A stretch of 36,649 bases of DNA from Candidatus Beckwithbacteria bacterium (lineage in GTDB: Bacteria > Patescibacteriota > Microgenomatia > UBA1400 > UBA1449): positions 1 through 36,649 of the forward strand of contig JAAZOH010000032.1 of assembly GCA_012797845.1 (NCBI GenBank). The letters are read 5' to 3'. This document shows, in pieces, positions 1,982 to 32,702 of the stretch. A program made the position numbers and the translations under genes. Under the pieces are notes generated by a model. It was not told the DNA's origin. It ran no database searches and worked only from the letters and a program-made list of their open reading frames with translations. Positions within the stretch are counted from its first letter, which is position 1, and each line of letters starts with the position of its first letter.

Positions 1982-2142
1982 AAAAAACCGCCCGAGCTTT
2001 TTAAAAAGAGCCATAAGGCGGTACCATCTTTTATTATACTTTTCCAGCTATCACGGGCTTACCCGACTTAGTTTTGGCTAAGTAGCGTGTTGTTTTGCAA
2101 CTTATCTGGTGTCAGCAGACTCAAACGCTTTTTCTAAATTAT
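1982..2142 (-). promoter_or_regulatory. T-box riboswitch with minimal specifier hairpin, upstream of aspS
   Basis: The antiterminator is textbook. AAAAGA (2032-2027) pairs with TCTTTT around the 7-nt bulge TGGTACC (2026-2020), and GCC/GGC closes a TTAT loop. The competing terminator is ACCGCC/GGCGGT followed by T6 (stem 2022-2017 with 1992-1987). Upstream lie CGGG-TAAG-CCCG and ACTTAG/CTAAGT hairpins. Instead of the long canonical Stem I there is a 4-bp hairpin, TCTG-CTGACAC-CAGA (2119-2105), whose loop shows the Asp codon GAC (2113-2111). The bulge UGGU is compatible with the acceptor end of a tRNA. Uncharged tRNA-Asp should stabilise the antiterminator and allow aspS transcription. The element aligns with the serS leader at 32555-32702. 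Confidence 0.88.
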
Positions 2143-27188: not shown

Positions 27189-27274
27189 TTGTCATTTCGA
27201 TCGAAGTGGAGACCTGCCTGCCGGCAGGCAGGAATTTTATCGAAAAGATCCTTTGACTTCGCTCAGGATGACAA
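27189..27274. repeat. Dispersed palindromic repeat, copy 4
   Basis: TTGTCAT/ATGACAA ends enclosing the perfect palindrome CCTGCCTGCCGGCAGGCAGG. It lies between divergent aminopeptidase and M24 peptidase genes. ATGACA at its right end could serve as a -35 box, with TAACAT 16 bp downstream. Confidence 0.78.
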
Positions 27275-31208: not shown

Positions 31209-32480
31209 CTATTTTTTAATAAGCTCTTTTCCCATAAAAGCTTGCAATGCTTCAGGCACAAGGATAGAGCCATCTTTTTGTTGATAACTTTCCATAATAG
31301 CTATCAAAATTCTGGGACTGGCAATAGCGGTATTATTAAGCATGTGGACATACTTAATCTCACCATCTTTAGTTTTGTAGCGGACATTGGCTCGACGGCT
31401 TTGGAATTCGCCCATAATCGAATCAGACATAGTTTCCCCAAAATCATTACGGCCTGGCATCCAGGTTTCGATATCATACTTTTTGATTTGTGGTTCACCC
31501 ATATCACCGGTGCACATCAGCATAACCCGGTAATGCAGGCCAAGTTCCTGAAGCATTTCTTCGCTGTAAGTACGCAGCTTTTCATGCCAGGATTTTGACT
31601 CTTCTATATCGTTTTTACATAAAATTACCTGTTCAACTTTGGTAAATTCATGAATGCGGTACATGCCTTGAGTATCCTTACCATAACTGCCGATTTCACG
31701 GCGATAGCACTGTGAATAACCAGCGTAGAGTTTTGGTAGTTCGCTTTCAGTTAAAACCTCATCCATATGGTAAGAAACTAGAGGTACTTCAGCTGTGCCA
31801 GCTAAAAAGCGTTCATCTTTTTCACCTTCATCATCAAAAGTTTTGTAGACATCAACTTTACCCCAGGGGAAATGGGCGGTATTTACAAAAGGCCGTTCAT
31901 GTAAAATAATTGGCGGTACTACGGGAGTAAAGCCTTTTTCAAGCAATTTTTTCAAAGCAAAATTCATCACGGCTAGATGAAGTAAAGCTCCGTCACCTTT
32001 TAGGTAATAACCCCTAAAACCAGCCACTTTAGTGCCCCGGTCAAAATCAACAATATCTAAATCTTTAGCTAGTTGAACATGGTCTTTGATAGGAAAATCA
32101 AATTCCGGTTTTTGGCCCCAGGTAGCCACTTGCACATTGCCGCTACTATCTTTACCAATAGGCACTTCTGGATCAGGGACATTGGGAATTTGCAGCATCA
32201 AACTGTCGTAATCAGCTTGAATTGTACTGAGTTTAGTTTCTAGCTCAGAGATTTGGCTGCGGATCTGTTTGCCTTTCTCGATAACTTCTGGACTGGGCTT
32301 ACCATAAATCCCTTCATTTAATTTGTTGCGCTGTGTTCTTAGTTCCTGGACCTGCTGCATAAGCTCTCGACGTTGCTGATCAACTTTGAGCAAGTTATCA
32401 ACTTTATCAGGTACGCCTTTATCGGCTGCAGCTTTTTTAACTAAGTCTTTATTATCTCTAATAAATTGAATATCTAACAT
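31209..32480 (-). CDS. serS: Seryl-tRNA synthetase
   Basis: Charges tRNA-Ser, and tRNA-Sec where present. The 423-residue protein has the long N-terminal coiled coil that clasps the tRNA variable arm (about 30-100, with QQRRELMQQVQELRTQRNKL). The class II core follows, with motif 2 CYRREIGSYGKDTQGMYRIH and FTKVEQVILC, and motif 3 TAIASPRILIAIMESYQQKD. Length and motifs are normal. The ATG at 32480 lies 8 nt after the AATGACA end of a dispersed repeat. A T-box leader with a UCC specifier lies upstream, so expression should respond to uncharged tRNA-Ser. Confidence 0.96.
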   Translation of the reverse strand: MLDIQFIRDNKDLVKKAAADKGVPDKVDNLLKVDQQRRELMQQVQELRTQRNKLNEGIYGKPSPEVIEKGKQIRSQISELETKLSTIQADYDSLMLQIPNVPDPEVPIGKDSSGNVQVATWGQKPEFDFPIKDHVQLAKDLDIVDFDRGTKVAGFRGYYLKGDGALLHLAVMNFALKKLLEKGFTPVVPPIILHERPFVNTAHFPWGKVDVYKTFDDEGEKDERFLAGTAEVPLVSYHMDEVLTESELPKLYAGYSQCYRREIGSYGKDTQGMYRIHEFTKVEQVILCKNDIEESKSWHEKLRTYSEEMLQELGLHYRVMLMCTGDMGEPQIKKYDIETWMPGRNDFGETMSDSIMGEFQSRRANVRYKTKDGEIKYVHMLNNTAIASPRILIAIMESYQQKDGSILVPEALQAFMGKELIKK

Positions 32481-32554: not shown

Positions 32555-32702
32555 TAAAAAAACACCACCATTACTCTTTCAAAGAGCCATGTGGCGGTGC
32601 CATCTTTTACTATACTTAATTCCTGCTGTCACGGGCTTACCCGGAAGAGCATTTCCTCTCTTCAGCTTGGCAGTTGGAAGCTGCCTCATAACGCTGTTAC
32701 TT
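32555..32702 (-). promoter_or_regulatory. T-box riboswitch with minimal specifier hairpin, upstream of serS
   Basis: The antiterminator is AAAAGA (32608-32603), the bulge TGGCACC (32602-32596) and the hairpin GCC-ACAT-GGC with TCTTT. The competing terminator is CACCGCCA/TGGTGGTG with an inner CTCTTT/AAAGAG, then T7 (32562-32556). The specifier hairpin GGCAG-CTTCCAA-CTGCC (32685-32669) shows the Ser codon TCC (32678-32676) at the same loop position as GAC in the aspS element. A GAAGAG/CTCTTC hairpin and CGGG-TAAG-CCCG follow, as in aspS. CCGTGA.AGC.GGAA and the T-box itself are nearly identical between the two leaders. Confidence 0.9.

Follow-up and report, generated by a model that had tools for sequence, protein, structure and literature searches.

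The window analyzed here, the whole 36,649-nt stretch of contig JAAZOH010000032.1 from Candidatus Beckwithbacteria bacterium, carries ahead of its seryl-tRNA synthetase gene a leader RNA of ~147 nt (32702-32556, minus strand). Judged from its sequence, this leader is very probably (roughly 0.93) a transcription-attenuating T-box riboswitch with an ultrashort, Class III-like Stem I. It lies between a Nudix-like gene and serS (31209-32480, minus strand; 423 amino acids; TIGR00414, 441 bits), whose product has its best matches (74-75%) in "Dojkabacteria" T1Sed10_24 and "Beckwithbacteria" AS27yjCOA_127, with Collierbacteria, Roizmanbacteria, and Gottesmanbacteria next. These homologues put this metagenome-assembled genome in the Microgenomates group of the ultrasmall Patescibacteria.

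Architecture of the serS leader and its sister leaders

All elements of the serS leader are on the minus strand. A sigma-70-type promoter (32737-32709) comprising TTGGTA (32737-32732), a 17-nt spacer, and TATAAT (32714-32709) preceded by TG was placed, with a transcription start near 32702, by a promoter scan whose chance level is by itself not low. The ultrashort Stem I (32696-32663), delimited by covariation, consists of a 3- to 4-bp base, an internal loop, and a 5-bp hairpin with a 7-nt loop. Its base pairs CAGC (32696-32693) with GCTG (32666-32663), the internal loop is kink-turn-like (GTTATGA, 32692-32686, opposite AA, 32668-32667), and the upper helix pairs GGCAG (32685-32681) with CTGCC (32673-32669). 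The resulting specifier hairpin, GGCAG[CTTCCAA]CTGCC (32685-32669), displays the serine codon UCC (32678-32676) at positions 3 to 5 of its loop (32680-32674). Covariation also delimits a compact Stem II hairpin, GAAGAG[AGGAAATG]CTCTTC (32663-32644), which lacks an S-turn and whose first base, 32663, may alternatively lengthen the base of Stem I. The Stem IIA/B element that follows (32643-32620) is conserved in 35 leaders and is made up of a CGGG-TAAG-CCCG hairpin (32643-32632) and the conserved tail TGACAGCAGGAA, which as RNA reads UGACAGCAGGAA.

The T-box sequence TGGCACCGCC (32602-32593) is embedded in an antiterminator (32607-32581), both helices of which covary. On the 5' side are A1 (AAAGA, 32607-32603), the T-box bulge (TGGCACC, 32602-32596), and A2 (GCC, 32595-32593); after a loop, the 3' side continues with GGC (32588-32586) and TCTTT (32585-32581). 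An alternative intrinsic terminator (32598-32556) pairs 32598-32591 with TGGTGGTG (32570-32563) and ends in a T-run (32562-32556), so that the two structures are mutually exclusive, as is characteristic of T-boxes. Between the terminator and the serS start lies a strong palindromic hairpin (32553-32487, minus strand; -28.2 kcal/mol, z = -5.1), the arms of which are GTGTCATCCTGAG and CTCAGAATGACAC. The arm GTCATCCTGA is found again at 1840-1849 and at 27263-27272 of the window, which gives this hairpin the look of an interspersed repeat.

At the other end of the window, a sister leader (1982-2142, minus strand; covariance-model match of 109 bits) precedes aspS, an aspartyl-tRNA synthetase reading frame that is open at the contig end (2-1759, minus strand) and belongs to the AspRS cluster. 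Its parts, likewise on the minus strand, follow the order of the serS leader with one additional hairpin (2101-2089). They include a promoter (TTGACC-17-TATAAT, 2177-2149), a Stem I base pairing AGC (2129-2127) with GCT (2086-2084), a specifier hairpin, GTCTG[CTGACAC]CAGAT (2120-2104), with GAC at loop positions 3 to 5 (2113-2111), a compact Stem II (2082-2067), Stem IIA (2065-2054), the T-box TGGTACCGCC (2026-2017) with the bulge TGGTACC (2026-2020), and a run of 6 T (1987-1982). The sequence CGGGTAAGCCCG is common to both leaders.

A first-pass annotation, made from the letters alone, had paired these two leaders through a shared T-box, CGGG-TAAG-CCCG stem, and flanking sequence, and had read UCC and GAC at loop positions 3 to 5 with CT before and A after; every one of these observations was recovered. 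The CGGG-UAAG-CCCG stem, however, lies outside the specifier element; it is the counterpart of the canonical Stem IIA in the IIA/B pseudoknot. Nor is the serS leader the second of two: the genome (1.28 Mb in 46 contigs) has four leaders with a short Stem I. The other two, found as subthreshold matches of the Rfam T-box model, precede GlyRS (C25:4657-4842) and ThrRS (C29:20319-20502); visual inspection showed a short Stem I in both, with loops containing GGC-A and ACC-A, respectively. The search pattern then proposed, TGGNACCGCC, was too narrow, since the glyS and thrS T-boxes read TGGAACCGCG; across the whole genome, its exact matches in leaders were limited to serS and aspS, the remainder falling in nonleader places.

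Thus, in this genome, codon and gene agree in four of four leaders (UCC-serS, GAC-aspS, GGC-glyS, and ACC-thrS). The variable T-box base (C in serS, U in aspS, A in thrS and glyS) was further compared with the discriminator base N73 of the genome's own tRNAs, which is G in tRNA-Ser(GGA) and tRNA-Asp(GUC) and U in tRNA-Thr(GGU) and in both tRNA-Gly found. All four cases can pair, three by Watson-Crick geometry and one, Asp (G73 with U), by wobble. In serS, the UGGC of the bulge is complementary to the G73-CCA end of tRNA-Ser(GGA). A tRNA-Gly(GCC) was sought in the assembly and not found, though the glyS specifier is GGC, and the 39 tRNA matches of the genome include no Asn, Phe, or Tyr tRNA; the absent genes may reflect either assembly gaps or unusual tRNA genes.

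Codon-gene correspondence and covariation among relatives

Relatives were gathered with a covariance model (R1) built from the two window leaders, which gave 107 matches in 73 of the 373 genomes of the class. Clustering and NCBIfam models identified serS, aspS, ileS, valS, proS, and alaS among the downstream genes. For each leader, the specifier hairpin was chosen without regard to codons, as the one scoring highest when its 5'-flank profile and stem scores were added. At an offset of 1 to 2 nt from the 3' end of the loop, the cognate codon was found in 67 of 91 leaders of Ser, Asp, Ile, Val, Pro, and Ala synthetases, compared with a mean of 22.7 and a maximum of 37 in 5,000 shuffles of the gene labels. 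Of the 50 confident picks left at the strictest of five score thresholds, 48 held the cognate codon in the loop (shuffles, mean 24.5 and maximum 34), and the observed count exceeded every shuffle at all five thresholds.

Neither of the two exceptions, L125 and L192, holds up as a mismatch. In the Pro leader L125, a hairpin inserted in the loop defeats the automatic test and CCC is present; L192 has AAC (Asn) before a nondiscriminating AspRS, which is consistent. Most misses at lower thresholds came from picking the wrong hairpin, the cognate codon lying in a neighboring one; six leaders (L158, L164, L168, L178, L180, and L197) fall outside this account. Apparent AUA codons in the IleRS leaders L126, L150, and L173 were discarded, as these matches began inside the specifier hairpin and AUC stands just upstream.

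The codons seen were UCC (18 leaders) and AGC (5 leaders) for Ser, GAC for Asp, AUC for Ile, GUC for Val, CCG and others for Pro, and GCC for Ala. The occurrence of both UCC and AGC at the same loop position before serS is especially telling, because no single substitution links them. Non-synthetase targets fit as well: proBA has CCG, argH has CGC, aspartate aminotransferase and PEP carboxylase have GAC, a PGDH/SerB-like fusion before serS has UCC, and serine hydroxymethyltransferase has GGC; phosphoserine-phosphatase-like genes in operon with serS are also among the targets. Visual reading of short Rfam matches in the class extended the list to Gly GGC, Arg CGC, Pro CCC/CCU, Val GUC, and Phe UUC (pheS), and placed glycine codons before serine hydroxymethyltransferase and a formyltetrahydrofolate deformylase. 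In all, the short-Stem-I leaders cover about eleven amino acids, and codon and gene correspond in about ten specificities.

Several individual loci deserve mention in their own right. Leaders with AAC precede a nondiscriminating AspRS (L192:301) and an aspartate aminotransferase (L200:301); such a switch may sense the charging of tRNA-Asn where AspRS makes Asp-tRNA-Asn. Three leaders with the Arg codon CGC (L128, L147, and L148) precede proteins of 449 to 494 amino acids without a match in NCBIfam or Pfam, which makes these genes candidates for arginine-related genes. At L206, a tRNA-Ile with the genomic anticodon UAU was seen; its usual counterpart has a CAU anticodon modified to lysidine.

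For a hold-out test, a model designated R2 was run on 379 genomes drawn from the phylum, of which 61, mostly outside the class, gave matches. Twenty-two new leaders were examined; 18 had confident hairpins, and 17 of these carried the codon of the gene. The sole miss was a mis-chosen hairpin, with UGACAA directly upstream, before aspS. The comparison of codon and synthetase that the first-pass annotation had called for thus came out in its favor in both sets (48/50 and 17/18), and its idea of a minimal, reusable T-box with a codon matching the synthetase is borne out by ~91 leaders of the class and the 22 of the hold-out. Its claim that two leaders prove the codon position by covariation went too far; the position itself is supported, with two leaders being suggestive only and the class-wide and hold-out data making the case. 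Likewise, loop positions 3 to 5 describe 7-nt loops, and what stays constant across the family is that 1 to 2 nt separate the end of the codon from the stem's 3' strand, with A as the next base in 60 of 73 cases.

The proposed fold was assessed in 35 leaders, whose alignment was fitted to the structure and so leans toward it: 94.3% of cells were paired, compared with 69.3% in shuffles. Upper Stem I (98.8% paired) and the base helix of Stem II (95.3%) showed double changes at five of five pairs, as did antiterminator helix A1; helix A2 showed them at three of three. Two checks lean less in this way. In the first, the base helix of Stem I was examined, which was absent from the alignment model although its columns adjoin modeled ones; it was 97.1% paired (82.9% in shuffles) with double changes, occurring as AGC/GCU, CGC/GCG, GUC/GAC, GAC/GUC, UGC/GCA, AAC/GUU, and GGC/GCC. 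This helix pairs better than, and replaces, a candidate three-way-junction helix (GCUR/YAGC), two of whose four pairs were poor (5 and 13 cells unpaired in the 35 leaders). In the second check, UCC-type hairpins were retrieved by loop sequence alone, and all five positions were paired in every distinct leader sequence where the hairpin is the specifier, one of them with a terminal G-U, whereas the same loop sequence elsewhere was fully paired in 0.7% of cases. Class III T-boxes have a kink turn at the base of Stem I; here, between the two covarying helices of Stem I, candidate kink-turns read GUUUGA/(A or G)A, and relatives have GUUGAUG/GGAGC; serS itself, with GUUAUGA/AA, is a candidate by sequence only.

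Mode of control and competing explanations

We infer from the way T-boxes are known to work that the leader binds tRNA, senses its charging, and switches in the direction described here. By this analogy, the anticodon of uncharged tRNA-Ser(GGA) would pair with the UCC displayed at the tip of Stem I, and the free G73-CCA end of the tRNA would pair with UGGC in the T-box bulge. These contacts would hold the weaker antiterminator helix, allowing RNA polymerase to read into serS. With charged tRNA-Ser, the 3' end could not pair, the more stable terminator would form, and transcription would stop. Predicted folding energies are -15.3 kcal/mol for the terminator and -4.9 kcal/mol for the antiterminator in serS, and -13.9 and -5.0 kcal/mol in aspS, a difference in line with a switch whose on state depends on tRNA. 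Among 76 leaders with a confident Stem I, a run of T5 or longer lies 20 to 120 nt after TGGN in 69, compared with 10 control windows. In 73 of the 76 (control places, 7 of 27), a -10 hexamer with no more than one mismatch lies 13 to 60 nt upstream of Stem I, too close to leave room for a long Stem I. In the window leaders, the -10 hexamer stands ~25 to 30 nt upstream of the specifier hairpin.

The published short-Stem-I T-boxes are mostly translational (PMC10482949), so that an antisequestrator freeing a Shine-Dalgarno site, as in actinobacterial ileS, has to be considered here. We regard this as very unlikely given the GC-rich terminator hairpin followed by 7 T in serS (6 T in aspS), a terminator end that lies 75 nt before the serS start codon, and the T5 runs at the right place in most relatives. 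Another reading would be a decayed T-box that has lost Stem I and with it regulation, and the reduced genome and the missing distal Stem I and S-turn would suit it. Decay is nonetheless highly improbable, as compensatory changes across genera maintain the base helix, the upper stem, the base of Stem II, and both antiterminator helices, and serS leaders switch between UCC and AGC.

In E. coli thrS, an RNA operator is bound by the synthetase itself. A synthetase-bound operator mimicking an anticodon arm would account for the size of the specifier hairpin (5 bp and a 7-nt loop), but its loop holds the codon, rather than the anticodon, in every specificity, and the same RNA occurs before non-synthetase genes. 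As the T-box, the antiterminator, and the agreement with N73 would also be left without explanation, this idea is scarcely credible. A transcription-attenuating T-box remains the preferred explanation. Counted against it are the failure of the Rfam T-box model to recognize the window leaders, the six leaders outside the codon account, the Asp T-box base, which pairs with N73 by wobble only, and the combination of a short Stem I with a plain-hairpin Stem II in the serS leader, set against the published requirement for a long Stem I or Stem II (PMC7583486).

Relation to known T-box classes and graded reduction

T-boxes are divided into four classes. Members of Class III, such as N. farcinica ileS, combine a Stem I that is short and has no elbow-binding module with a specifier in an apical loop of 5 to 6 nt; they require Stem II and act mostly on translation (PMC10482949). 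According to a review, a long Stem I is in general necessary for transcriptional T-boxes, and a truncated one hardly binds tRNA when Stem II is missing (PMC7583486). The present leaders resemble Class III (Nocardia farcinica and Mycobacterium ileS) in their short Stem I, apical-loop specifier, and absence of the distal tRNA-elbow module, and also in the IIA/B element, the UGGN bulge, and the purine after the codon (PMC10482949, PMC7583486). They differ in having terminators, loops mostly of 6 to 7 nt, a wide amino-acid range, and hosts in the Patescibacteria, and in a Stem II that is a plain hairpin (Ser, Pro, Arg, and many Asp) or absent (Thr and Gly). The window leaders share the short Stem I and apical-loop specifier of Class III but have neither its S-turn Stem II nor its usual translational control. 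With Class I (B. subtilis tyrS type, Rfam RF00230), the leaders share the antiterminator/terminator switch, the T-box sequence, and the IIA/B element, but those of the window lack its long Stem I, internal specifier loop, and elbow-binding module. The genome's own glyS leader and L292, L296, L298, and L299 resemble Class II glycine T-boxes (B. subtilis glyQS) in having no Stem II or IIA/B; glyQS, however, depends on a long Stem I and elbow module, both of which these leaders lack.

The apical-loop specifier is already known from actinobacterial ileS; what appears to be new is the transcriptional mode, the amino-acid range, the group of bacteria involved, and the additional reduction. The TBDB short-Stem-I model has been applied to Actinobacteria and to class I matches with a truncated Stem I (PMC7778990), so isolated transcriptional cases may be known. 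In the literature searched, no paper joined T-box riboswitches with Patescibacteria or CPR; the T-box surveys Sherwood 2015, Vitreschak 2008, and Gutierrez-Preciado 2009 were outside its scope, and an earlier description of short transcriptional T-boxes is possible. The Rfam model RF00230 gave no match to the serS or aspS leader up to an E value of 10 and exceeded its cutoff in only 18 of the 373 genomes of the class; the window leaders thus escape standard annotation. Patescibacteria also carry long T-boxes above the Rfam cutoff (L235-L244; e.g., L237, L239, L241, and L244), and some genomes have both long-Stem-I and short forms. In Tumebacillus (Bacillota), the serS leaders L075, L081, L086, and L088 have GAG[CAUCCAA]CUC, with UCC at loop positions 3 to 5, above a kink-turn-like base (GAUGA/GGA), all of it between the promoter and IIA, and from these features also seem to be of the short-Stem-I type; L075 has the same IIA/B element (CCGGGAATCGCCCGTTAACGCGG).

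In most Ile leaders, the segment separating Stem I from IIA forms a lengthened Stem II that contains an S-turn-like sequence, whereas in Ser, Pro, Arg, and many Asp leaders Stem II is a plain hairpin, with a purine-rich loop in Ser, Pro, and Arg. As counted with one sequence pattern, which variants may escape, the S-turn occurs in 15 of 20 Ile leaders and in none of the Ser (0/24), Pro (0/7), or Arg (0/3) leaders. In the genome's own thrS leader, Stem I runs directly into the IIA/B element without Stem II, and five glycine leaders (L009, L292, L296, L298, and L299), inspected by eye, have neither. We lean slightly toward the view that Patescibacteria hold a graded series of reduced transcriptional T-boxes, at the extreme of which glycine leaders would read tRNA by the codon hairpin and the UGGN bulge alone. 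On this view, Ile leaders are the main ones to retain the S-turn Stem II, and those with GC-rich specifiers have lost it, a pattern suggesting that the amount of scaffold required by a T-box is governed by the strength of codon-anticodon pairing.

At ~150 nt, the leaders are of a convenient size for structural studies and for building tRNA sensors in which the codon can be swapped. The natural series from S-turn Stem II to plain hairpin to no Stem II lends itself to asking for the minimum of tRNA reading. The leaders suggest that a T-box controlling transcription can dispense with the long Stem I that is generally regarded as necessary, and they point to amino-acid starvation control in reduced-genome bacteria, in which little regulation is known.
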